A stretch of DNA of 64,000 nt. Source: an uncultured Cellvibrionales bacterium (GTDB taxonomy: Bacteria > Pseudomonadota > Gammaproteobacteria > Pseudomonadales > Porticoccaceae). The position numbers were made by a program, and so were the translations under genes. Of this stretch, positions 35,323 to 49,958 are shown piece after piece. The stretch spans positions 42,031 to 106,030 of the forward strand of contig CAJWCO010000001.1 of the NCBI GenBank assembly GCA_913031145.1, written 5' to 3'. How positions within the stretch are numbered: position 1 is the stretch's first letter; each line of letters begins with the position of its first letter. The notes under the pieces were generated by a model. That model saw only the letters and a list, made by a program, of their open reading frames with translations, was not told the DNA's origin and did not search any database.

Positions 35323-36771
35323 TTAAGGACATCTTCTGTGGGCGAACCCTTTGCGTTCACATACCGATAATTCCGTATCAATACCCCGGTCACCCTGTTC
35401 GACCATCCAGTTTTCTAAATACCTTTTAAGGGATTTTACGGACATTTTGTAATCTGGCTGGTCGATAAGATTGATTTGTTCAAAGGGGTCATTGATCACG
35501 TCATACAGTTCGTACTCAGGGCGCGTCACGTAGCGGGCATAGCGGTCGTTGCCCAGCTTTTTTTCGGCGGCGAGTTCTTCTTTGAACCAAGGGTCTTGGG
35601 TCAGAATATTTGAGAAATTGCCGTCGGCCATAAGGTTATGGATTAGTTTAAGACGTTTACTTCGTATCGATCGGATCGGATAAGCCGCGCCATAATGAAC
35701 GTTCAAGCTGGTTTGAATACCATATACATAGACTTTGTGTTCCGTCTGTTCGCCCAACAAAACAGACTTAAAACTACTACCATCTGTATTCGCCGGTACC
35801 GTATTGTTGACGATGTCGGTGAGCGTTGGAATTACGTCCACGTACTCTATCATGGCGTCAGAGACCGTATTGGCTGTTATTTTTCTCGGCCAGCGCACAA
35901 TAAAAGCTGTTTTTAAGCCGCTGTCGTAGGTGGTCCATTTGCCAAAAGGCAAACTACTCCCTTGCTCCGTGGTAAAGATAAAGATCGTATCGTTGTGTAA
36001 GCCCAATTTTTTTAGTTCGTCATCCACAAGGCCCACTTCACGATCGAGGTCAGAAACTTCTGCAAGATACGCTGATAGGCGTTCCCGCAGACTCTGTGTG
36101 TCATTAAGGAAGGGAGGTACTTGGAGTGCATTTGGAGGGTATTGTGTCGCATCGCCACGACTCCATGGCTCATGCGGATTAGCTGACGCCACAATCAGGA
36201 AAAAAGGTCGCGTTTTATCTCTTGCCATAAATTGTCGGGTGATTTCAATCCCAAACGAAGACTCCCCCGTTGCGCCTTTGTTTGCTTTGCCCGCCCTAAT
36301 AAACGGGTAGGCTTTTCCCGGAAAGACGTGCCCTTTACCTGCCAAGCCAACGCGGTAGCCCATGTCTCTAAAATAGTGAGCAACACTTTTGACGCCATCA
36401 TGAACACGCGTGTGATTACCAAAAGCGCCGCTACGAACAGGATAAAGACCCGTGTAAAGCTGTTGACGAGTTACTGCGCACATGGCTGTAGTGGTAAATG
36501 CATGCGAGAACATCATACCCTCTCGAGCGAGTTGGTCAATGTGGGGGGTGCGCGCATTTTTGGGTGCATAGTCACTACGTTGATGGTAGGCACCCACATC
36601 AAACCAGCTCATATCGTCGGCGAGAAACAAAACAATATTCGGATATTTAGGCGCGATTTCCGACTTCATAGACTCTGACGTTGCAGAACTCAACGTCAGG
36701 CAAAAGTAAGCACTGAAAATGGCGATTTTTATAACGCTGGACATTATTAACTTGCCTGTCAATGAGATCAT
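35323..36771 (-). CDS. S1-type sulfatase (heparan N-sulfatase/sulfamidase-like)
   Basis: NIVLFLADDMSWFDVGAY; MCAVTRQQLYTGLYPVRSGAFGNHTR; FTTEQGSSLPFGKWTTYDSGLKTAFIVRWP; N-terminal signal peptide. Confidence 0.9.
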   Translation of the reverse strand: MISLTGKLIMSSVIKIAIFSAYFCLTLSSATSESMKSEIAPKYPNIVLFLADDMSWFDVGAYHQRSDYAPKNARTPHIDQLAREGMMFSHAFTTTAMCAVTRQQLYTGLYPVRSGAFGNHTRVHDGVKSVAHYFRDMGYRVGLAGKGHVFPGKAYPFIRAGKANKGATGESSFGIEITRQFMARDKTRPFFLIVASANPHEPWSRGDATQYPPNALQVPPFLNDTQSLRERLSAYLAEVSDLDREVGLVDDELKKLGLHNDTIFIFTTEQGSSLPFGKWTTYDSGLKTAFIVRWPRKITANTVSDAMIEYVDVIPTLTDIVNNTVPANTDGSSFKSVLLGEQTEHKVYVYGIQTSLNVHYGAAYPIRSIRSKRLKLIHNLMADGNFSNILTQDPWFKEELAAEKKLGNDRYARYVTRPEYELYDVINDPFEQINLIDQPDYKMSVKSLKRYLENWMVEQGDRGIDTELSVCERKGFAHRRCP

Positions 36772-37856
36772 GTCGGCACCGCTTTTATCTTTGTTCGAGT
36801 TGCTATGGACGTCGTCGATGCTCGTATCATCAGCTCAAAAGGCAGTTCGCGAGTGCTTGATGCGGGATCTAAGCGTCCCCGTAATTGCTCAATTAACATG
36901 CGGACAGCAGCCGCGGCCATCTCTTTGATGGGTTGGCGCACCGTCGTGAGCGGTGGCCATACAACCGTCGCAACTACGCTGTCGTCAAAGCCCGCAATCG
37001 ATACATCATCCGGAACGCTCAAAGAAAATTTATGGGCTGCCGCAATCAGGCCAGCGGCCATCCCGTCGTTGCTAGCAAAAATAGCCGTCGGCCGCTCAGC
37101 ATGTCTTAAAAGAGCCTCACCGGCCACTAGGCCCGAGCGGTACTCGAATGTGCCCTCGACAATGAAGCGATCGGGCACCGTCAGGTTTGCATCACGCATT
37201 GCGGACAGAAAGCCGCTCAGCCGGCGCTTTGTTGTTACTGTTCCCCGTCGACCCGTAACAAAACCAACCGATGTATGGGCCAGAGCAATGAGTGTCTGAG
37301 TCATCTGTCGCGCCGCCTCGAAATCGTTCATTTCTACGTGAAGCCCGACGTCCGTCGAAACGCTCGGGGCAATTCGCGCAAATGGTTTACCTGATGCTCT
37401 AAGTGCTTCTAGGATGATGGGTTCATCGCACAATGGAGGGGGAAGCAGCATGCCATCTACGTTTGATTGCACCAATAAACTCGTGATGTCCTCCATCACT
37501 GTGGGTGAGGACGCCATCACGGGTTCGACAATTAGATGATAGCCTTCTTTTCGGGTTTGGTCTAACGCACCACGCAAAAGGTCAACGATGTAACTCGGGT
37601 TGGGGTTGTCGAATATCAGTCCCAGTAAGTAAGAGCGTGTTCCCACTGCAGCCCTCGGCGCTAAACTGGGCCGATACTTTAAAATTTTCATTGCCTTTTC
37701 GACAGCAGCGCGAGTTTTAGGGCTTACATTGGGTTCTTGGCGGACAACCCGGGAGGCGGTCTTAACAGACACTTTTGCTAGCTTGGCGATATCCGCAAGC
37801 GTTGATTTACTTTCGACCATTCTTGCCTCTACGTTGTTCGACGTCCGTACCCGCAT
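36768..37856 (-). CDS. LacI family transcriptional regulator
   Basis: STLADIAKLAKVSVKTASRVVRQEPNVSPKTRAAVEKAMKILKYRPS HTH; periplasmic-binding-like effector domain; 4-bp overlap with the sulfatase gene. Confidence 0.95.
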   Translation of the reverse strand: MRVRTSNNVEARMVESKSTLADIAKLAKVSVKTASRVVRQEPNVSPKTRAAVEKAMKILKYRPSLAPRAAVGTRSYLLGLIFDNPNPSYIVDLLRGALDQTRKEGYHLIVEPVMASSPTVMEDITSLLVQSNVDGMLLPPPLCDEPIILEALRASGKPFARIAPSVSTDVGLHVEMNDFEAARQMTQTLIALAHTSVGFVTGRRGTVTTKRRLSGFLSAMRDANLTVPDRFIVEGTFEYRSGLVAGEALLRHAERPTAIFASNDGMAAGLIAAAHKFSLSVPDDVSIAGFDDSVVATVVWPPLTTVRQPIKEMAAAAVRMLIEQLRGRLDPASSTRELPFELMIRASTTSIATRTKIKAVPT

Positions 37857-38028: not shown

Positions 38029-38092
38029 CTTCGCTAAGCCAATGGCAAGTGTGTGCATGGCTTGACTCTTTCGAAGCAACTAAAACTTGATC

Positions 38093-38108
38093 ATGACATT
38101 ATTGTCAT
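38093..38108. promoter_or_regulatory. Inverted repeat ATGACA-TTAT-TGTCAT upstream of sulfatase
   Basis: Perfect 6-bp arms with 4-nt spacer, about 40 nt upstream of the proposed GTG start at 38146. Confidence 0.4.
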
Positions 38109-38145
38109 TATACTGGCTCCGGGCTCAATTATTGAGGGATTTCCT

Positions 38146-39615
38146 GTGTTGCGCGCTTCTCAATTTATACTTGGTTCAGTGGTGATCGCGAGCCTCGGTG
38201 CGTGTTCGGTTGAGCGGGCCTCTCGAGGAGCCCCCGATGATGCCTCGAAGCAGCCAAATATCCTTTTATTGTCTATTGATGATTTGCGCCCTGATTTAGG
38301 AAGTTATGGTCATCCCGTTGCGGTGACTCCGAATCTCGATGCTTTTGCAGCGACGGGTCTTTTGTTCGAGCGCGCTTACACCCAACAGGCAGTGTGTACA
38401 CCGTCGCGTGCGGCGCTGCTTACAGGCTTACGGCCTGCCACCACAGGTATAAAACGGCTCGACCAAACAGTTTCCGATACGGTGCCAAACATTATAACCC
38501 TCAATAAACTCTTTAAGCAGAACGGCTACGAGACTGTGTCTGTCGGTAAAATATATCACCATGCAAAGGACGACCGCGATGGATGGAGCCAACCCCCTTA
38601 CGACCAAGCCTATAAAGCTCGGCAAGACCGTCGGAAGAAGGGCCTGCCGAGGATAGCTCACGATGTTTGGACCTCGGATGAATTGTTGCCAGATGAAAAA
38701 AACATCGCCCATGCGATGACGGAGTTAGAGAGATTTAGTCAGCAGGGTGCACCGTTCTTTTTGGCGGTAGGCTTGCATCGTCCCCACCTTCCGTTTCGAG
38801 CGCGGGAAAAAGATTGGGGCCATTATTCGACCATCAACATACCCCGGCCGGTTTCAGATAAGCCGCCGGTAGGCGCGCCCAGATGGGCAATAGTGGCTTG
38901 GGAAATTTGGAATTATGACGATACGCCACCAAAACATGGACCCATGCCTTTCGGTAAGGCCGACGTGCTGCGCCACGGTTATCTTGCGTCCGTCTCTTAC
39001 GCGGATGATCTTGTCGGTCAGTTGTTAGATAAAGTGTCGTCTCTTGGACTCGATGATGAAACTATTGTCGTGATTTGGAGCGACCATGGTTTCAAGCTGG
39101 GTGATCACGGGGGGTGGGCAAAACACTCAACCGTAGAGCTAGATATTCATATTCCCATGATGATCCGCGTGCCGGGAATGAATACGGCGGGTCAACGCTC
39201 AAGTGCACTGGTTGAAACGGTCGATGTGTATCCCACACTGCTTGAGGCGGCGGGTCTTACCCAGCCGCATGCTTTAGAGGGGCTGTCAATGTTGCCGCTT
39301 ATTGCCCAGCCCCAGAGACCTTGGAAAGAAGCCGCGTTCGCGCAATACCCGCGGCATGTAAACAAGCAACTCCTTATGGGTAAGACAGTACGGACTGATC
39401 GCTATCGTTATACCGCTTGGGTGGTCGATAAAACCGGGGAGATTCTGGCTCAGGAATTGTATGACCACCAGATCGATCCGCACGAGACGCGTAGCGTATC
39501 GGAAAACCCAGACTATATCGATGTGCTCGAACGCCATGAAGCACTGCGTCAAGCGGGTTGGCGCGGTGCGTCTGAATTTGTAAATAAGAGACAAAGAGCA
39601 GGATTCACCAACTGA
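38146..39615 (+). CDS. S1-type sulfatase, iduronate-2-sulfatase-like lipoprotein
   Basis: NILLLSIDDLRPDLGSYGHPVAVTPNLDAFAATGLLFERAYTQQAVCTPSRAALLTGLRP; lipobox SLGAC; SDHGFKLGDHGGWAKHS. GTG start proposed. Confidence 0.94.
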   Translation: MLRASQFILGSVVIASLGACSVERASRGAPDDASKQPNILLLSIDDLRPDLGSYGHPVAVTPNLDAFAATGLLFERAYTQQAVCTPSRAALLTGLRPATTGIKRLDQTVSDTVPNIITLNKLFKQNGYETVSVGKIYHHAKDDRDGWSQPPYDQAYKARQDRRKKGLPRIAHDVWTSDELLPDEKNIAHAMTELERFSQQGAPFFLAVGLHRPHLPFRAREKDWGHYSTINIPRPVSDKPPVGAPRWAIVAWEIWNYDDTPPKHGPMPFGKADVLRHGYLASVSYADDLVGQLLDKVSSLGLDDETIVVIWSDHGFKLGDHGGWAKHSTVELDIHIPMMIRVPGMNTAGQRSSALVETVDVYPTLLEAAGLTQPHALEGLSMLPLIAQPQRPWKEAAFAQYPRHVNKQLLMGKTVRTDRYRYTAWVVDKTGEILAQELYDHQIDPHETRSVSENPDYIDVLERHEALRQAGWRGASEFVNKRQRAGFTN

Positions 39616-39652: not shown

Positions 39653-40042
39653 ATGAAAAAAATTGTTGCTAGTTTTGCCTGTTTTATTTTTTTACCTGCC
39701 GTGTGTTACGCGGAGTCGACAGCGCTTTGGCGCTCGTTCGATCTCGATAAGGACAACGCCCTGAGTCTTCAAGAATTTGGCAATTATCGCTCCAACCAAT
39801 ACGTTGAGCTCGATGCTGATATGGATGGCAAGTGGACCCGACGTGAGTTCGTCCAGCGCCCAGATTACATGCAGTCCATACGGCCAGACGAATTGCGTAA
39901 AAAGTTTAAGCGTTGGGACAAAAATAAAGATGGGTATTGGACGCAGGGTGAGGCTGAAAAAGCCATAAAAGGAAATTTTTATTGGTTGGACAAAGACAAA
40001 AGCAAAGCGATCAGTATGGACGAAATGCCCAAGGGGTTTTAA
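39653..40042 (+). CDS. Secreted EF-hand protein (four DxDxD-like loops)
   Basis: Signal peptide MKKIVASFACFIFLPAVCYA; loops DLDKDNALSLQEF, DADMDGKWTRREF, DKNKDGYWTQGEA, DKDKSKAISMDEM. Confidence 0.88.
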   Translation: MKKIVASFACFIFLPAVCYAESTALWRSFDLDKDNALSLQEFGNYRSNQYVELDADMDGKWTRREFVQRPDYMQSIRPDELRKKFKRWDKNKDGYWTQGEAEKAIKGNFYWLDKDKSKAISMDEMPKGF

Positions 40043-40257: not shown

Positions 40258-42231
40258 ATGCGTATGACGAAAATCATTTTATTAACGAGCTTCTGTCTTT
40301 TTTTGGTGGCGTGTGGCGATAACGATTCGGCACCCGCCGAGGCGGAAACATGGAGTCATCTCCAGTCGATAAATTTTGTGAGTGAGAGCTACGAGATTGT
40401 CATTGGCAATATGCAGGAAGTGACAGCGACGGACGGGCTTGGTTCTGGGGTTATTACCTACAGTAGCAGTGATGAGAGTATTGCGACGGTATCGGGCGCA
40501 GGTTCTATCTCTGCGCATGCGTTGGGTAGCGTCACCATGACTGCGACGAAAGCGGCAGATAGCAAATACGCTGAAGCAGCGGCCACCACGAACGTCACGG
40601 TTATACCGCCAAAAACTCAAGTCATTAGCTTTGTGAGCACGGCGGTTTCGATCACGCTGAATACCACGAAAATGCTGGCCGCGACTGGGGGTGCAGGCAC
40701 CGGCGTCATAACTTATACCAGCAGCGACGCGAATATTTTGACGATCTCACCTGCCGGCCTAGTGGAAGCACTCGCAGTGGGCACGGCTACTATAACGGCC
40801 ACCAAGCCAGCCGATAGCGACTACCTAGAAGCGACAGCCACAGCTGAGATTACCGTCGAAGCAGAACCCGTTCCGCTTCTACCGCCGGTCATTAGTATGG
40901 TGTCTTCAGGCAATGCGAGGGCGACGATATCATGGAATGCTACAGGCGATGAAGCCACCTTAAGCCTGTATTCGGCAAAAGAGAGTATCGGCGACCCTGC
41001 GAATTATGCATCGTTGTCTGCGGGAACACTGACGTTGGATGTAACTTCGCCGTTCACAATGATTGGACTGGACAACGGCGAGCGTTATTATTTTGTTGTT
41101 ACGTCGTCTGACGGTGTTGAAGAAAGTGCGGGGAGTAATGAGCTCAGCGTCGTGCCGCAAAATCCATTGAACGACACCGGTATTTTGTTCAGTGCAAATG
41201 CGACATCTGGGCTCAATGCGACCTGCACGCAGAGCATTGATAGTGAAGGGCACGTTCCTCAGGACTGCGATCAGGGGCGTGATGCCGATACGACTCTCGC
41301 TGTCAGCAAAGTCGGCACGGGTGTGGCGAGCTTTGATTTTAGCAAACTTGCCAGCGATGGTGCCGTGCTGGCGGAGCAGACGGCGGCTTGGTCGAATGAA
41401 GGCTCTGAGGCTGTCGGAACGCAATGGAGTTGTGTTAAAGACAACGTTACCGGGCTAATTTGGGAGATTAAGACCGCGACAGGGGTGCATAGTTTTGACG
41501 AGAAAGTGAACTGGTCGAATCGCGCTTTGCTCGCTGAGACCACTAACGGGGAAATGTTATGTGGGTTAGATGACTGGCGCGTGCCAACGCCGATGGAATT
41601 ACTGAGCATCGGTAATAACGGGCGTCAGAACCCGGCATTCGACACCGACATGTTTCCAAATGGTAAGTCGCAATCTTATTGGACGTCGTTGCCCGATGCG
41701 GGCAATGCAGCCAATGCTTGGACGATAAATTTCTTTGCCGGAATTGGTAACTCGAAGACTAAAACGATGGCATTTCAGGTTCGATTGGTATCAGGTGATT
41801 ACCAAGCTAACGACACCTCTAGTGGGCGTTATACTGTTAATGAAGATGGCACCGTGACTGATCGGGTAACGGGGCTGATGTGGACGCAGTGCCCGGAAGG
41901 CCTGTCGGGTATTGACTGCAGTGTTGGAGTAGTAACGACGTCAGTGTGGGGGGCGTCGATGAAAGCGGCGAGAGATTCTACGTATGCAGGTTATGATGAT
42001 TGGCGCATACCAAACATGAAGGAATATCAATCCATCGTTGCGTTCGATCGGAATAATCCCGCGATTAACACAGCCGTGTTTCCGGGCGCGGTCATCAACT
42101 TTTGGTCGTCAAGTCCGAAAGCACAAGCAGCGGTTAATTCGTTCCGAATTAACTTTACCAAAGGTCTAATGGAGGCGAAAGCTCGAACGGGCACGGTAGC
42201 GGCGCAACGCTTTGTTCGAGATGCAGATTAA
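40258..42231 (+). CDS. Lipoprotein with two BIG2-like repeats, FN3-like domain and two tandem DUF1566/Lcl_C-like domains
   Basis: Lipobox LFLVACGDN; repeats GVITYSSSDESIATVSGAG / GVITYTSSDANILTISPAG; NVTGLIWE...CGLDDWRVPTPMEL and RVTGLMWT...GYDDWRIPNMKEYQSI. Confidence 0.85.
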   Translation: MRMTKIILLTSFCLFLVACGDNDSAPAEAETWSHLQSINFVSESYEIVIGNMQEVTATDGLGSGVITYSSSDESIATVSGAGSISAHALGSVTMTATKAADSKYAEAAATTNVTVIPPKTQVISFVSTAVSITLNTTKMLAATGGAGTGVITYTSSDANILTISPAGLVEALAVGTATITATKPADSDYLEATATAEITVEAEPVPLLPPVISMVSSGNARATISWNATGDEATLSLYSAKESIGDPANYASLSAGTLTLDVTSPFTMIGLDNGERYYFVVTSSDGVEESAGSNELSVVPQNPLNDTGILFSANATSGLNATCTQSIDSEGHVPQDCDQGRDADTTLAVSKVGTGVASFDFSKLASDGAVLAEQTAAWSNEGSEAVGTQWSCVKDNVTGLIWEIKTATGVHSFDEKVNWSNRALLAETTNGEMLCGLDDWRVPTPMELLSIGNNGRQNPAFDTDMFPNGKSQSYWTSLPDAGNAANAWTINFFAGIGNSKTKTMAFQVRLVSGDYQANDTSSGRYTVNEDGTVTDRVTGLMWTQCPEGLSGIDCSVGVVTTSVWGASMKAARDSTYAGYDDWRIPNMKEYQSIVAFDRNNPAINTAVFPGAVINFWSSSPKAQAAVNSFRINFTKGLMEAKARTGTVAAQRFVRDAD

Positions 42232-42357: not shown

Positions 42358-45306
42358 ATGGAGCATAAGTTTTCAGCAAGACGTCAATGGGTCAAGGCGG
42401 CGAGCATGTCACTGATTTTAGGGTCAGGGTCGCTAGCTACTGCCCAAAGCGCAGAGCCCAAAGCCGAACCGAGTGATGCTGAACTCGAAGAAGTGATTGT
42501 GTACGGAATTCGCGCTAGCCTTGAATCTGCCCTAGAAGCGAAGCGCGCGCGCGCCAACCTTACCGAAATTATTAATGCAGACGATATCGGCAAACTCCCT
42601 GACGAGAATTTGGCGGAGGTCTTAGAGAACATTCCGGGCGTGCAGATCACGCGAAGTGCGGGTATTGGCGATAGCGTGTCAATTCGCGGCAGTGACCAAA
42701 ACCGCATTGAAATCAATGGGCGAACAAGCACACCATCGGGTGACGCTCGTGGGGGTATCAGCTTTTCTGATCTTCCAGCAGAGCTCGTTCGGCAGTTGGT
42801 TGTGGTCAAAGTCCCCACCGCCGATATGGTTGAGGGTTCGCTTGGCGGCACCATCAATGTCAACATGTACCGGGGCCTTAAGTTGCAAAAGCCACTTCGT
42901 ATGATTAAGTTGACGTCGGAATATGCGGATAATGCAGACCAGTGGAATCAGGACATTACCGCAACGATAGGCGACAATATGTCAACGGAGTACGGTGATT
43001 TCGGTGCCATTGTAACGCTTACACACAGGGACAAGATTGTTCGCGAAGACGCTCTTCGGAGTTCGCAGGGCGTCACGCAGGGCCACAATGGCAACGGCGC
43101 TAGCCAAATCGACTTTGATGGCGATGGTCTTGGCGATGCCTATTACAAGCCCGGCTACTCGAGCCTTCAGGTCGACCGCAGCCGTCGAAAAAATACAGCA
43201 TTCCAAGGTTCCTTGGAATGGCGGCCCAAAGAAGCGTTAAAACTTTTTGCTGAGGGAACCTATACGGATTTTGCGCAACAGAATTTAGGAAAAGTGGCCG
43301 CTTTTGGTGCCGCAGGGTCTGACTTGGAATTAGATGGTGCGGCAGATGCCACGTTTGGGCTTTCCGATGTGGCAGGGTTCACGGTGCCCGTCATGACGTC
43401 AGGTATTATTGGCGGGGGGATCAGAAATGGGCAGGTGGATTTGCCCAGCCAAACGGCTAGTCCTGATGATGGTATGCGGCTCCGCACGAACAATAAAACG
43501 GGTAATCGCGATACCCAATCTTATGTGGCAGCGCTCGGCGGTGAATGGGAGCGCGATAATGTGCGCGTGGATTTTGAGGTCAGTTCTAGCGGTTCCAAGA
43601 ACGCACAAAATAATTTGAACGCGATTTGGCAGTTCAACGATGTCAATGAAGACGGTGCTACAGTTCACGGCGCGGAGTACACCCGCATCCCGATTCAATA
43701 CGATATGCGCGGCGGCTTTTTTAGCTACGGTCCTGTCCAAGGTCGGGACCCAGACTTGCTTAAAAATCTTGCAGATCCAAGGTACTATTCGCTGTTTATT
43801 GCCCGTGATACAGATCAATACTTCGACAATGATTCGACGGAGGGAAAGGTTGATATTACTTGGAATCTCGATGATGAGCTGCCAGTCTGGTGGACGTCGA
43901 TAAAAACGGGTGTGCGGGTGAGTCAGCGATCAATAAAAAGGAACCGCGAGTCACGGTTCACGGGAAACTACCCCGGGGTATCTGGAGAGGACCTCAAAGA
44001 ATACGGGGACCTCGGGCCGGGAGATTTCTTTGCCTTTAATGAGGGCGGCAGCTATCTCGACAACTGGTTTTCGCTGGATCCATTAGCGATTGCCGGGAAT
44101 CGTGCCGAAGTACGAGAAGCGCTGACCCTGTGTGAAGATAACACGGACGCGTGTAACTCTAATACGGACGATCCCGCTCAGACCTTCACGGTTGAAGAAG
44201 ACACGGCCGCTCTTTATGTTCGGGCTGACTTCGAGACCCTATTCTTTGGCCTCCCGCTTAGTGGTAATTTGGGCATAAGAGGTGTTGAGACGGTCCAGCA
44301 CACATTTGGTTCGATCATCGGGGAAGTCGATGGCCTAGAAGTGCAGCAACCGATCGATATTCGCGAAACATATACGGAATGGCTGCCGAGTGCCAGTTTG
44401 GTCTTCCTGCCGACGGAAGATTTTCAAATCAGGTTGGGTTTTGCACAAATCCTCCGGCGGCCTGACTTTAGCCAGTTGTCTCCCACGGTACGTCTTCCGT
44501 TAAATGAAAATCCAGTAACAGTGGGAAATCCAGAGTTAAAACCCACGACCGCGGATCAATACGACCTAACCGCGGAGTATTATTTTCGTAAGGGTAGCGT
44601 ATTCAGTCTTGGCTACTACTACAAAGATTTAGACGGTGTTGTTGCCAATCAAACAAGTTTTGCACGAGACTATTGTAACTCGCAAGCGGGCAATACGAAC
44701 GCGGGTGACGAAGAGCTTTCTCAAGATTTTGGCTGCACCACGGCTTGGGGGGCGCCAGGTATTTTGGTGGCAAGAATTACCCCGGTGAATTTGCCGGGCG
44801 GCAACATCGAAGGGCTAGAGTTTTCGTTTCAGCATAGCTTTAGGGGGCTGCCGAGCCCCTACAATGGTTTGGGTGTGGTTGCCAGTTATGCCTATCAAAA
44901 GGGTAGCCGCGACTATCTGTTCAAAACGCCCAATTTTTTGCGTGAGGACGGTGAATTCCAAGAGTTCCCTGTGAACTTCAGGAAGTTATCCGAAAATTCT
45001 TACAACTTTACCGTCTTCTATGAAAAATATGGGTTTAACGCGCGCTTACGCTACACGTTTCGGGACCATTTCTTAGTCAATGAGGCCATTGATGTTGCCA
45101 ACGGGCAGCCGCTCTATCAAGATGACAGAGGGCAGTTGAATGCGTCGATGTCTTACAGGATTAATAAAATGTTCACTGTTCGGTTCAATGGCGTTAATCT
45201 CACGAAAAGTCGCAGAGTGCAACCGGCAGTCTTCGCCAGCGGGCCGATTGGACGAATGTTCGATACTGACCGGCGGTTAGCGTTGGGGATTACCGCGCGT
45301 TTTTAA
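42358..45306 (+). CDS. TonB-dependent receptor (Caulobacter/Xanthomonas-type carbohydrate TBDR)
   Basis: EEVIVYGIRASLESALEAKR, DIGKLPDENLAEVLENIPGVQITR plug, NPELKPTTADQYDLTAEYYF, C-terminal aromatic LALGITARF. Confidence 0.95.
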   Translation: MEHKFSARRQWVKAASMSLILGSGSLATAQSAEPKAEPSDAELEEVIVYGIRASLESALEAKRARANLTEIINADDIGKLPDENLAEVLENIPGVQITRSAGIGDSVSIRGSDQNRIEINGRTSTPSGDARGGISFSDLPAELVRQLVVVKVPTADMVEGSLGGTINVNMYRGLKLQKPLRMIKLTSEYADNADQWNQDITATIGDNMSTEYGDFGAIVTLTHRDKIVREDALRSSQGVTQGHNGNGASQIDFDGDGLGDAYYKPGYSSLQVDRSRRKNTAFQGSLEWRPKEALKLFAEGTYTDFAQQNLGKVAAFGAAGSDLELDGAADATFGLSDVAGFTVPVMTSGIIGGGIRNGQVDLPSQTASPDDGMRLRTNNKTGNRDTQSYVAALGGEWERDNVRVDFEVSSSGSKNAQNNLNAIWQFNDVNEDGATVHGAEYTRIPIQYDMRGGFFSYGPVQGRDPDLLKNLADPRYYSLFIARDTDQYFDNDSTEGKVDITWNLDDELPVWWTSIKTGVRVSQRSIKRNRESRFTGNYPGVSGEDLKEYGDLGPGDFFAFNEGGSYLDNWFSLDPLAIAGNRAEVREALTLCEDNTDACNSNTDDPAQTFTVEEDTAALYVRADFETLFFGLPLSGNLGIRGVETVQHTFGSIIGEVDGLEVQQPIDIRETYTEWLPSASLVFLPTEDFQIRLGFAQILRRPDFSQLSPTVRLPLNENPVTVGNPELKPTTADQYDLTAEYYFRKGSVFSLGYYYKDLDGVVANQTSFARDYCNSQAGNTNAGDEELSQDFGCTTAWGAPGILVARITPVNLPGGNIEGLEFSFQHSFRGLPSPYNGLGVVASYAYQKGSRDYLFKTPNFLREDGEFQEFPVNFRKLSENSYNFTVFYEKYGFNARLRYTFRDHFLVNEAIDVANGQPLYQDDRGQLNASMSYRINKMFTVRFNGVNLTKSRRVQPAVFASGPIGRMFDTDRRLALGITARF

Positions 45307-45498: not shown

Positions 45499-47172
45499 TT
45501 GATGCCCAATTACTTAGGTAGGTACAGATCTTCTCTGCTGGTGTGCGCGTGCGTTGTGGCATGTTATTTAGTAACCACGGCAGTCGCTGCTAAAGAAGTA
45601 AGTGCTTACTATGTTAGCGCGTCTGCTGGGAACGATAACAATGACGGACGCACCGAAAAGACCCCTTGGGCTAGCCTTGACCGCGTGGTTTCACAGCGTC
45701 TTGCTCCCGGTGATACGGTACGCTTTCGTGCAGGCGATCGTTTTATTGGCCAATTGATTATTGATGAATCGGGCGCTCCCGATGCAGTCATCACGTTTAC
45801 GTCTTATGGCGACGGTGAAAAACCCATCTTAGATGCAGCACCGATGGAAAAAGGTTCAGCGGTCGCGACGGTGGTTATCAATGACCAAGATTATATCGAG
45901 ATTGAAGGCCTTGAAATCCAAAACTTTCGCCGTAAATCACTGAGGGGCGTCAGAGACGTTGATGCCTTTGGTATTTTGGTGCGCAATACCGGAAAGCGCT
46001 TTCTCAAGGGCTTCGAATTTCATAATCTTACCGTTCAAAATATCTACCCGATCAAGCTGAAGAAGCACTTTGATAGCACCTCGGTGAGTGGTATTCGTTT
46101 TGAGACATTGCCCGCGAAGACGTATAAAGACGCTGTCAACACAAGCGAGATTTATCTGCATAATAACGTGCTCCGTCATACAGGCCGCTTTGGTATGAGC
46201 CTTCGTCATCGCCCTTCTAAGGTTGACCGATTGGCGGGCTTGCCAGTCAATTATGATGTCAATGTGCGCATTACAGGAAATACATGCGAGCACTTGGGAG
46301 GAAGCTGTGTCCTTATGAACGGTGTTTACAATGGCCTTTTAGAAGGGAATATCTTTCTGCGCTCAGGCTCAACGATCCAAGCGGAGCGGTCGGTTCAGCG
46401 CGGAAGTGGCGCTTGGTTCTTTCGTAGCCGGCATATAGTCGCGCAAAAAAATGTAGCGATTTCGTCAAGGGGGCACAACGATTCCAGTGGGATCCACGTG
46501 GACTATGGAAACGAAGATATTCTCGTTCAATACAATTTTTTATACGACAATGAGGGGTATGGAACTGAAATTCTTGGCAAGAACAAAAATATCATTTGGC
46601 GCTACAACATCAGTGTCGGTGATGGAACGCGGCGTATCAAGGTGCCGCGACCGGATGGAAAAACGAGTCACCATGCAGGTAAAACGGTTTTTGTCAGTGA
46701 TTTTTCTGTGCCACGTCGAATTCAATCTCGGGGTGTTTATATTTATAACAACACCTATGTGACTGCAGCTAATTCCCAGCCGGGCATAGAGATTAACAGC
46801 GTAGACACCCACATTATCAACAACATTTTTGTGGCCTCCCCGAACAGTCACATGGGGCATAGGGTCAAAATTGGCTGGAACGATGTGCAGATAGCTCGAA
46901 ATGCTTTTTCGGGCTCTATTGCGCCTGCGTTTATCGCCCGTGATTCTCGCCCATTGCTCGCGGATATTTCGTTTGTTGGTGAGGCCAGCGCCGTTGGCAC
47001 CTATGCGCTTCCATCGCGTTATCATGCTGAATTACGGGGGCAGTCTTTGACGCATCCCTCTTTTCCTGCCGCTGGCAAGGGTATCTTGGGTCACATCAGT
47101 GAAGTGCCTGAGGTAGATTTTTTTAATAAGCCACTCGATCACGATAGCCCACTTGTAGGCGCTGGCTACTGA
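45499..47172 (+). CDS. Secreted right-handed parallel beta-helix protein (candidate polysaccharide lyase or hydrolase)
   Basis: Signal peptide; YYVSASAGNDNNDGRTEKTPWASLDRV; repeated beta-helix segments (VRITGNTCEHLGGSCVLMNGVYNGLLEGNIFLRSG...). Confidence 0.82.
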   Translation: MMPNYLGRYRSSLLVCACVVACYLVTTAVAAKEVSAYYVSASAGNDNNDGRTEKTPWASLDRVVSQRLAPGDTVRFRAGDRFIGQLIIDESGAPDAVITFTSYGDGEKPILDAAPMEKGSAVATVVINDQDYIEIEGLEIQNFRRKSLRGVRDVDAFGILVRNTGKRFLKGFEFHNLTVQNIYPIKLKKHFDSTSVSGIRFETLPAKTYKDAVNTSEIYLHNNVLRHTGRFGMSLRHRPSKVDRLAGLPVNYDVNVRITGNTCEHLGGSCVLMNGVYNGLLEGNIFLRSGSTIQAERSVQRGSGAWFFRSRHIVAQKNVAISSRGHNDSSGIHVDYGNEDILVQYNFLYDNEGYGTEILGKNKNIIWRYNISVGDGTRRIKVPRPDGKTSHHAGKTVFVSDFSVPRRIQSRGVYIYNNTYVTAANSQPGIEINSVDTHIINNIFVASPNSHMGHRVKIGWNDVQIARNAFSGSIAPAFIARDSRPLLADISFVGEASAVGTYALPSRYHAELRGQSLTHPSFPAAGKGILGHISEVPEVDFFNKPLDHDSPLVGAGY

Positions 47173-47210: not shown

Positions 47211-48644
47211 ATGCGAAAAATGTACGTTTTAAGCTATCTGTTTGTCGCTTTGGTGAGCGTTCACTCGCACGCTGCCAATACCCCGAATTTTATTTTAGTG
47301 TTGACGGATGACCACGGCTGGACAAGTCTATCGACCCCTATGGATCAATCGCGTCCTTGGGCGAAAAGTGATTATTACCGGACGCCCAACATGGATGCAC
47401 TGGTCAACTCAGGAATGCGTTTTTCGAATGGCTATGCAGCAGCTCCGGTTTGTGCGCCATCGCGATACAGTCTTCAATTTGGTCAGTCATCTGCTCGTTT
47501 ACACCGAACGTGGGCGCAAGGAAAGAATCAGGTCGATCACAACCAAATGGGTATTGCTCAGGTTTTAAAGGCCATTGACCCGAACTATCGTGCGGCGCAT
47601 TTTGGTAAATGGCATATCGACGCAAGCCCCGATCGCTATGGCTATGATGTTCACGATGGCATCACAAAAAATCGTGAAGGCGATTTCGTCAATAATCAAC
47701 CCAAAAGGCAGTGGCGCGGGTATGCCGATGAGGACCCCAAACGGGTTTACTCACTGACACAACGCACGATTGAATTTATTAAAGAGTCGGTCGAGGAAGA
47801 CCGACCATTTTTTGTTCAATTATCGCATTATGCAGTACATAGTAATCTCGTTTACAGTCAAGAATCTTTTGATGAAGTCGGGCGATGGAAGAAAGGAAAA
47901 ATCCACAATAATCATGCCTATGCAGCAATGACACGTGATCTCGACCTGTCAGTGGGGGCTCTTCTGGAAGCTTATGACGCGCTTGGACTGGCGGATAACA
48001 CCTATATTATCTTCACCGCTGATAACGGTGGAATGCCAGTACTGCCGCTCAAATTGACTGGAGGAAAACCTTATAAATCGGGCCTGAACATGCCTCTGCA
48101 AAGAGGTAAATGGGATTTAACCGAAGGAGGTCTTCGCGTGCCGTTTGCCATCCGTGGTCCCGGAATTCAAGCGGGAAGCCAAAGTGATACGCCAGTGGTG
48201 GGTTACGATTTACTCCCCACGCTTGCAGATCTTGCGGGGTCGTCTGAAGGGCTTCCAGCGGAGATCGATGGCGGTAGCTTACGGCCACTACTCAGTAATC
48301 CGCAGGCTGCAGTTCAACGGTCTTTCGACGGCTTGGTTTTTCATTTTCCCCACTATAACGGCGCGGGTTTAGATGAGCCGCATTCAGCCTTGCGCTCTGG
48401 CGATTATAAATTATTGAAATTTCACGCTTCCAATCGATCTCTTTTATTTAAAGTGGATTCAGACGTTGGCGAGAGTACCGATCTATCAGACCGCGATCCC
48501 GCACGTAAAGCCTACATGGAGGGTTTATTGGCCGGTTATCTCGACGATGTTGACGCTGAGCGGCCAGACGCCTGTTTTAGTTGGACAAAAAGAGGCCGGA
48601 ATGGATCGGTCAAAACATTATTTTTGAATCGCTATTTGCAATAA
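47211..48644 (+). CDS. S1-type sulfatase
   Basis: NFILVLTDDHGWTSLS; PVCAPSRYSLQFGQSSARLHRT; TADNGGMPVLPLKLTGGKPYKSGLNMPLQRGKWDLTEGGLRVPFAIRGPG; signal peptide. Confidence 0.94.
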   Translation: MRKMYVLSYLFVALVSVHSHAANTPNFILVLTDDHGWTSLSTPMDQSRPWAKSDYYRTPNMDALVNSGMRFSNGYAAAPVCAPSRYSLQFGQSSARLHRTWAQGKNQVDHNQMGIAQVLKAIDPNYRAAHFGKWHIDASPDRYGYDVHDGITKNREGDFVNNQPKRQWRGYADEDPKRVYSLTQRTIEFIKESVEEDRPFFVQLSHYAVHSNLVYSQESFDEVGRWKKGKIHNNHAYAAMTRDLDLSVGALLEAYDALGLADNTYIIFTADNGGMPVLPLKLTGGKPYKSGLNMPLQRGKWDLTEGGLRVPFAIRGPGIQAGSQSDTPVVGYDLLPTLADLAGSSEGLPAEIDGGSLRPLLSNPQAAVQRSFDGLVFHFPHYNGAGLDEPHSALRSGDYKLLKFHASNRSLLFKVDSDVGESTDLSDRDPARKAYMEGLLAGYLDDVDAERPDACFSWTKRGRNGSVKTLFLNRYLQ

Positions 48645-48668: not shown

Positions 48669-49958
48669 TTAGTTCGGTAGAACCGATTTACGGCAGGTTA
48701 CTGCAAAGTATACGCAATACCCGCACCTGATCAGGTACACGGCGAAAGCGCTTTTAAGGCTTACATGGTCGGCCATTATAGCCGCGATCATTGGAATAAC
48801 GGCACCGCCGAAAATAGACATGCATAAAAGCGCGGACACTCGGGGCGCAGGTGCTTGCATATTTCGAAGCGTAAGGCTAAAGATAAGCGGGAATTGCACG
48901 GAATTAAAAAATCCAACGGCCACCAGTAACGCCGCTGAGACGGCTCCCTTTGTGGCAAGCGCGGCTACAATTAACGCCGTAGTCATGGCAGCTGAGGCCT
49001 TTAACACCTGATCGGCGGGCACGCGTTGCAGAATGACCGCTCCTACAAACCGGCCGAACATCGCTAATCCCCAATACACGACTACGAAATAGGACGCGTC
49101 TGACGCGGTGAGACCCAGCACACTGCCTTGGCGCAAAAAGTTTATTAACAGGCTGCCTATGGTCACTTCAGCACCAACATAGAGAAAGACGGCGGCCATA
49201 CCTCGATGAACCTGCCACTGTCGCACGAGTTGTCTGTACGAGTTCAAGGGTTCGTGTAGTTGGGCAAAGGCCGTTGGTTTTAAGGAAGTTGGTAAAGGCT
49301 CGGGAAGTAAGCGCACAAGAAGCGATAACAGAGCGAGTATAGCGCTTAACGAGAGCGCAAAAATGACGATAGCTCGAGTGGTTTCCGCAACATAGCGCGC
49401 CTGTTCGACAGGCTCTAAGCTGGTCAATTGCGACGTTGATAAGGTGTCGATACTCAACAGTGTGACCGAAGCGATGATAGGCCCTATGGTGGTGCCAAGC
49501 GAATTAAATGCCTGGGCCAGTGTTAAGCGCCAGGCAGCTGTTTTGGCGTCACCCAGTACCACGATCATCGGATTTATGGCGACTTGCAACATCGCGATGC
49601 CACTTGCTGCGCAAAATATACCGACGAGGAAAAGCTCATAAGAGCCAACATTTACCGCGGGTACGAGAATAAATATACCCATCGCGGTTCCACTCAGACC
49701 GAAAATGATTGCTCTCTTATAACCCGAGTCTTGAATCATTTGTCCAGCAGGAATGGGTATAAACAGATAGGCCAGAAAGAAGCTAAACTGAATGAACAAT
49801 GCAGATGTGTAGGATAAATCAAACAGCGATTTCATGCGGGGGATCATCATGTCGACGGACACTGACGTCAGGCCCCATGAAAAGCAAATCGTGGCTATCA
49901 GCGGCCTCACACAGCGGTGATGTCTAGTGCCACTGGAAATACGTTCTCGATTCTTCAT
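48669..49958 (-). CDS. MFS transporter, FHS (fucose/glucose permease)-like
   Basis: FFLAYLFIPIPAGQMIQDSGYKRAIIFGL; GIAMLQVAINPMIVVLG; LTLAQAFNSLGTTIGPI resembles FucP/GlcP family signatures. Confidence 0.85.
   Translation of the reverse strand: MKNRERISSGTRHHRCVRPLIATICFSWGLTSVSVDMMIPRMKSLFDLSYTSALFIQFSFFLAYLFIPIPAGQMIQDSGYKRAIIFGLSGTAMGIFILVPAVNVGSYELFLVGIFCAASGIAMLQVAINPMIVVLGDAKTAAWRLTLAQAFNSLGTTIGPIIASVTLLSIDTLSTSQLTSLEPVEQARYVAETTRAIVIFALSLSAILALLSLLVRLLPEPLPTSLKPTAFAQLHEPLNSYRQLVRQWQVHRGMAAVFLYVGAEVTIGSLLINFLRQGSVLGLTASDASYFVVVYWGLAMFGRFVGAVILQRVPADQVLKASAAMTTALIVAALATKGAVSAALLVAVGFFNSVQFPLIFSLTLRNMQAPAPRVSALLCMSIFGGAVIPMIAAIMADHVSLKSAFAVYLIRCGYCVYFAVTCRKSVLPN

Follow-up and report, generated by a model that had tools for sequence, protein, structure and literature searches.

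Glycan-related binding is known for two members of the Lcl_C family, the Legionella adhesin Lcl (PMC11162425) and, in part, the Leptospira adhesin Lsa25 (PMC3444417). Lcl binds sulfated glycosaminoglycans (GAGs) via a positively charged surface that includes K369, K380, K385 and K391, and K369 contacts a sulfate ion in the Lcl crystal (PMC11162425); sugars contribute to the binding of Lsa25 to laminin (PMC3444417). Since the surface lysines of Lcl are poorly conserved even among other Legionella species (PMC11162425), membership in the Lcl_C family does not carry the GAG-binding function, and a transfer of this function by family name was rejected. According to excerpts of PMC8371827 and PMC10100682, gammaproteobacterial polysaccharide loci have TonB-dependent receptors (TBDRs) but no SusC-SusD pairs. 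A combined search of the available paper library found no paper linking DUF1566/Lcl_C to such polysaccharide loci.

We analyzed a 64,000-nucleotide stretch of DNA (hereafter, the window) from an uncultured Cellvibrionales bacterium, where a lipoprotein with two Lcl_C domains, here termed LclLP, is encoded next to a TBDR gene. With moderate confidence, we propose that LclLP is an outward-facing accessory glycan-binding lipoprotein of the outer membrane, belonging to a LacI-regulated polysaccharide utilisation locus (PUL) and catching an anionic, probably sulfated glycan for the TBDR. The locus and the domains of LclLP are laid out as follows.

35323-36771, minus strand: sulfatase C, with CAVTR in place of CxPxR (family and PDB search)
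36768-37856, minus strand: LacI-family regulator (Pfam)
38053-39615, plus strand: sulfatase A, CTPSR motif, best PDB match 6hhm (family and PDB search)
38093-38108, no strand: candidate LacI operator ATGACATTATTGTCAT (motif shared across loci)
39653-40042, plus strand: EF-hand protein between sulfatase A and LclLP, conserved in the ortholog loci L038 and L039 (Pfam, ortholog loci)
40258-42231, plus strand: Lcl_C lipoprotein LclLP, 657 aa (ORF list, Pfam)
40258-40314, plus strand: signal peptide and lipobox of LclLP (LVAC, lipidated Cys19, Gly at +2; sequence and ortholog alignment)
40360-40863, plus strand: two Big_2 Ig-like repeats forming the stalk (Pfam, alignment)
40870-41166, plus strand: FN3-like segment (fn3 in members of the ortholog alignment)
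41167-41424, plus strand: conserved region before the first Lcl_C domain, residues 304-389, with invariant GHVPQDCDQGRDAD (ortholog alignment)
41431-41790, plus strand: Lcl_C domain 1 (98.8 bits)
41848-42219, plus strand: Lcl_C domain 2 (92.2 bits; AF2 model, fold match 8q4e)
42100-42195, plus strand: basic patch of domain 2, K621, R630, K635, K641 and R643 (equivalent to Lcl residues about 363-392)
42358-45306, plus strand: TonB-dependent receptor (profile TIGR01782, 530 bits, cut-off 310)
45499-47172, plus strand: right-handed beta-helix protein, distantly like the lacto-N-biosidase LnbX (profile and sequence match)
47211-48644, plus strand: sulfatase B, CAPSR motif, best PDB match 9fo1, an S1_16 kappa-carrageenan sulfatase (family and PDB search)
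48669-49958, minus strand: predicted transporter of MFS type, bordering the inserted segment (recognized by eye from the sequence)

LclLP matches the Pfam profile Lcl_C (DUF1566, PF07603) in two stretches (E 3.6e-54, 182.5 bits, cut-off 34.9), as well as Big_2, also in two stretches (E 5.7e-14, 52.3 bits, cut-off 22.8). Together with the lipobox, these matches bear out the earlier note, which had read the gene as a lipoprotein with two BIG2-like repeats and two tandem C-terminal DUF1566 modules and had placed the modules at about 41425-41796 and 41827-42228, close to the limits found here. The three sulfatases and the TBDR flanking the lipoprotein had been recognized there as well; the EF-hand gene and the region 304-389 are additions. 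The FN3-like segment of the earlier note also stands: though a Pfam search of the window's own LclLP gives no fn3 match at E<1, this domain is matched in seven of the eight members of the ortholog alignment (best E 1.3e-4), and the label is therefore fair. The lipobox is present, by motif, in 8/8 aligned orthologs with Cys19-Gly20 invariant; since the +2 residue is Gly, there is no Asp for inner-membrane retention. The length of the stalk varies, as the orthologs in L034, L036 and L040 carry about two extra Big_2 repeat units. The whole protein is acidic (pI 4.35). No SusD Pfam family was found in LclLP at E up to 1, and a phmmer search of the whole protein against PDB yielded Ig-like and chance matches only.

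The AF2 model of domain 2 alone has pLDDT 86.4 and pTM 0.82, though just two of the five models reached that quality; with both domains modelled together, pLDDT is lower and moderate (67.6). The only PDB match of domain 2 at E<=0.001 is 8q4e, the C-terminal domain of Lcl (E 3.2e-5, 26% identity, 101 columns). LclLP belongs to the Lcl_C family by both profile and fold; the domain assignment of the earlier note held up in the profile searches and in the fold match of domain 2. In the basic patch of this domain, K621 aligns with Lcl K369 and is invariant in eight orthologs, the same column being basic in only 2% of other domains; K635 and K641 contrast with the other domains to a similar degree. 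Lcl K380, K385 and K391 are unmatched by position in domain 2 and have other basic residues nearby, the loop alignment being uncertain here. The net charge of the patch is +3 to +5 in 8/8 orthologs, whereas 39 non-redundant other domains average -0.95 (sd 2.1), with three of them also at +3 or more; because the orthologs constitute a single clade, this is effectively one observation. An alignment-based charge count agrees with the segment net charge. The conserved lysines had already been seen before counting and, given also the one-clade test group, we regard the counts as supportive, not conclusive. For domain 1, a role as basic binding domain found no support: its charge counts are unremarkable and it has no distinctive basic patch.

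The gene order around LclLP is conserved. Scanning one genome per species with the C-terminal 359 residues of LclLP, we found eight orthologs (60-66% identity); a ninth (G834, L128) is cut at a contig end and has an identical downstream order. The TBDR is the next gene after LclLP in 9/9 loci with downstream sequence, the window included (L036, whose contig ends at the lipoprotein gene, was left out of this count), and the TBDRs of the ortholog loci are 47-59% identical to that of the window. In a six-frame analysis, the order is a divergent LacI gene upstream where the contig reaches it, LclLP, the TBDR, and then, on contigs long enough, a beta-helix protein and a sulfatase. Sulfatase A and the EF-hand gene of the window locus are also present in L038 and L039; other ortholog loci additionally hold GH3 and further sulfatases. 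The nine loci fall in three lineages, namely the genome of the window, a single genus of the G397 family and the family of L038 and L039, and thus do not represent nine independent cases. Orthologs were found in 7 of 140 genomes of the G397 family, all from one genus, in 2 of 111 genomes of the L038/L039 family, and, among an order-wide sample, clearly in the window genome and G397 only. None was found in the 13 congeners searched, nor on plasmids, where all matches were below 60% identity and none covered 80% of the query. In seven congeners lipA directly adjoins the genes that flank the window's locus and the cluster is absent from that site; hence the segment at about 35.2-50.0 kb of the window was inserted here or lost in the others. 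No foreign base composition of the inserted segment was seen.

The earlier note made the co-occurrence of DUF1566 lipoproteins with sulfatase and TBDR loci a test of its idea; such co-occurrence holds for the orthologous subfamily, always next to a TBDR, and fails for the family at large. A profile search of 20 loci holding other Lcl_C proteins (L041-L044, L046 and L096-L110, 6-21 kb per locus, Lcl_C about 28-54% identical in matched parts) found a TBDR or a sulfatase in none of them, the TBDR and sulfatase profiles having been built from proteins of the present analysis; linkage of the whole family was accordingly rejected. The window's own genome has Lcl_C at two places only, in LclLP and in a single-domain protein on contig 22, and 18 sulfatase matches in 2.2 Mb as well as an FGE-type maturation enzyme; 15 of these sulfatase matches lie elsewhere in the genome, on contigs without any Lcl_C lipoprotein. 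The empty control loci and the scarcity of Lcl_C among many sulfatases show that the linkage belongs to the LclLP subfamily rather than to DUF1566. The family name alone would have misled, and the linkage of LclLP rests on gene order. The single-domain protein on contig 22 (L110:17720-18292) is located amid housekeeping genes, and a similar one is present in most congeners. A family expansion is seen in G908, the genome of L041 and L042, with about 25 Lcl_C matches in 2.0 Mb, many near contig ends.

In G025, G035, G009 and G003, homologs of the TBDR and the beta-helix protein are present without LclLP, which makes LclLP an accessory rather than an obligate partner. The ORF that precedes this TBDR in G009 (L093:1731-2222) matches CBM48 marginally (21.3 bits against a cut-off of 22.4); upstream of the TBDR in G003 there is a gene for a large beta-helix/CBM4_9/esterase protein (L094:5794-9930). 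These neighbors weakly suggest that the position of LclLP beside the TBDR could be filled by other carbohydrate-binding proteins.

Although the LacI-side intergenic regions otherwise align poorly (column identity 46% on average), ATGACAATATTGTCAT or a close variant is common to them. The 14-base palindrome core is found unchanged in seven PUL loci (and in L126, part of the genome that also includes L045) but in none of the unrelated loci examined; allowing up to one mismatch, the window's genome has a single copy, at window positions 38093-38108. LclLP is the first gene past the palindrome in L034, L036, L040 and L045. That the palindrome is conserved next to the divergent LacI gene suggests a shared regulation of the locus, and the LacI protein would bind it. 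A promoter scan gave fewer matches than in shuffles. As the palindrome lies inside the called ORF of sulfatase A, the called start is probably wrong and the real one near 38146, where a downstream GTG gives a lipobox and a lipoprotein signal.

The best matches of the three sulfatases point to different glycans, that of sulfatase A being an S1_7 enzyme of an ulvan pathway (PMC9096561) and the nearest matches of sulfatase C being SGSH and S1_8, so that no substrate is named. Sulfatase C has CAVTR instead of the C/S-x-P-x-R maturation motif and may be inactive or a variant. The EF-hand protein matches lanmodulin weakly (39 bits against a cut-off of 135) and is 57-59% conserved in L038 and L039. 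A search for anti-phage defence gave no match.

LclLP has the genomic traits of a PUL surface glycan-binding protein, namely a conserved place beside a TBDR, in a locus that includes degradative enzymes and a regulator, and a lipoprotein signal. The three locus sulfatases, the FGE in the genome and the basic patch suggest that its ligand is sulfated. We propose that the acidic Big_2/FN3 stalk would keep the two C-type-lectin-like Lcl_C domains clear of the membrane, and that the anionic, probably sulfated glycan of the locus would be bound mainly by domain 2 through its basic patch. The bound glycan would be kept near the receptor encoded by the next gene, and the receptor would import the chains for desulfation and cleavage. 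Several observations speak against capture: domain 1 lacks the patch, three of the four Lcl lysines have no counterpart by position, the protein is acidic, pairs of TBDR and beta-helix protein exist without LclLP, and 15 sulfatase matches are found without Lcl_C.

The characterized Lcl_C proteins, Lcl (PMC11162425) and Lsa25 (PMC3444417), are adhesins, and the layout of LclLP, a stalk with a variable number of Ig repeats and a lectin tip, would suit one too. LclLP could then fix the cell to glycan-bearing algal surfaces or particles, being co-regulated with the locus and delivering no substrate to the TBDR. We consider this unlikely, as a general adhesin would have no need to be tied to one TBDR in all nine loci and, apparently, to one regulator. 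The adjoining TBDR gene could also mean that the partner of the Lcl_C domains is a protein, either the TBDR or one of the locus enzymes, and not a glycan; C-type-lectin-like folds bind proteins too, and domain 1 has no glycan-specific feature. Such a protein scaffold is improbable given that TBDR homologs exist without LclLP and that the subfamily-specific basic patch on domain 2 suits a polyanion better. Finally, the lipobox tells nothing of direction, and no dedicated surface-export gene was recognized in the locus, so LclLP could face the periplasm and retain enzymes or imported oligosaccharides at the outer membrane's inner leaflet; with its long Ig-like stalk and the family precedents on the cell surface, this orientation seems improbable.

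Glycan capture at the cell surface, the reading that we prefer, would give the Lcl_C domain, described so far from adhesins, a catabolic role. LclLP resembles the C-terminal domain of Legionella Lcl (PDB 8Q4E, 8QK8) in PF07603 membership, in the fold match of domain 2 and in a basic patch at the same segment. Unlike Lcl, it has Big_2 and FN3 instead of collagen-like repeats, a lipid anchor instead of an amphipathic helix, and two tandem Lcl_C domains, and its gene sits in a catabolic locus; the trimer-stabilizing Arg342 of Lcl corresponds to P445 in domain 1 and M587 in domain 2. Lacking both the collagen repeats and Arg342, LclLP is, as judged from sequence, not an ortholog of Lcl. It shares an Lcl_C-type domain with Lsa25 (DUF1566) and scores 55.7 bits to NF047850, but this is far below the cut-off of 260 bits. 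We know of no catabolic locus for Lsa25.

The LclLP gene directly adjoins the gene of a TonB-dependent transporter, in a locus that is regulated and contains sulfatases; in this it resembles the genes of SusD and further surface glycan-binding proteins in Bacteroidetes loci, and by this analogy LclLP may work like a surface glycan-binding protein. In contrast to SusD, it has no SusD Pfam match, has a different fold and is not obligate for its TBDR; the 'functional SusD/E analogue' of the earlier note thus survives as an analogy only, with neither homology to SusD nor a strict dependence of the TBDR on LclLP behind it. The TBDR loci without SusCD excerpted from PMC8371827 and PMC10100682 are of the same kind and come from related marine organisms, but those excerpts name no glycan-binding lipoprotein for them. 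We tentatively raise the possibility that a C-type-lectin-like adhesin domain was taken over into TonB-dependent uptake as a protein dedicated to the capture of sulfated glycan, and that gammaproteobacterial loci lacking SusD would thus have their own, unrelated surface glycan-binding proteins. For a protein doing the work of SusD in such loci, LclLP is a concrete candidate in marine bacteria that is conserved, apparently co-regulated and of a lectin fold.
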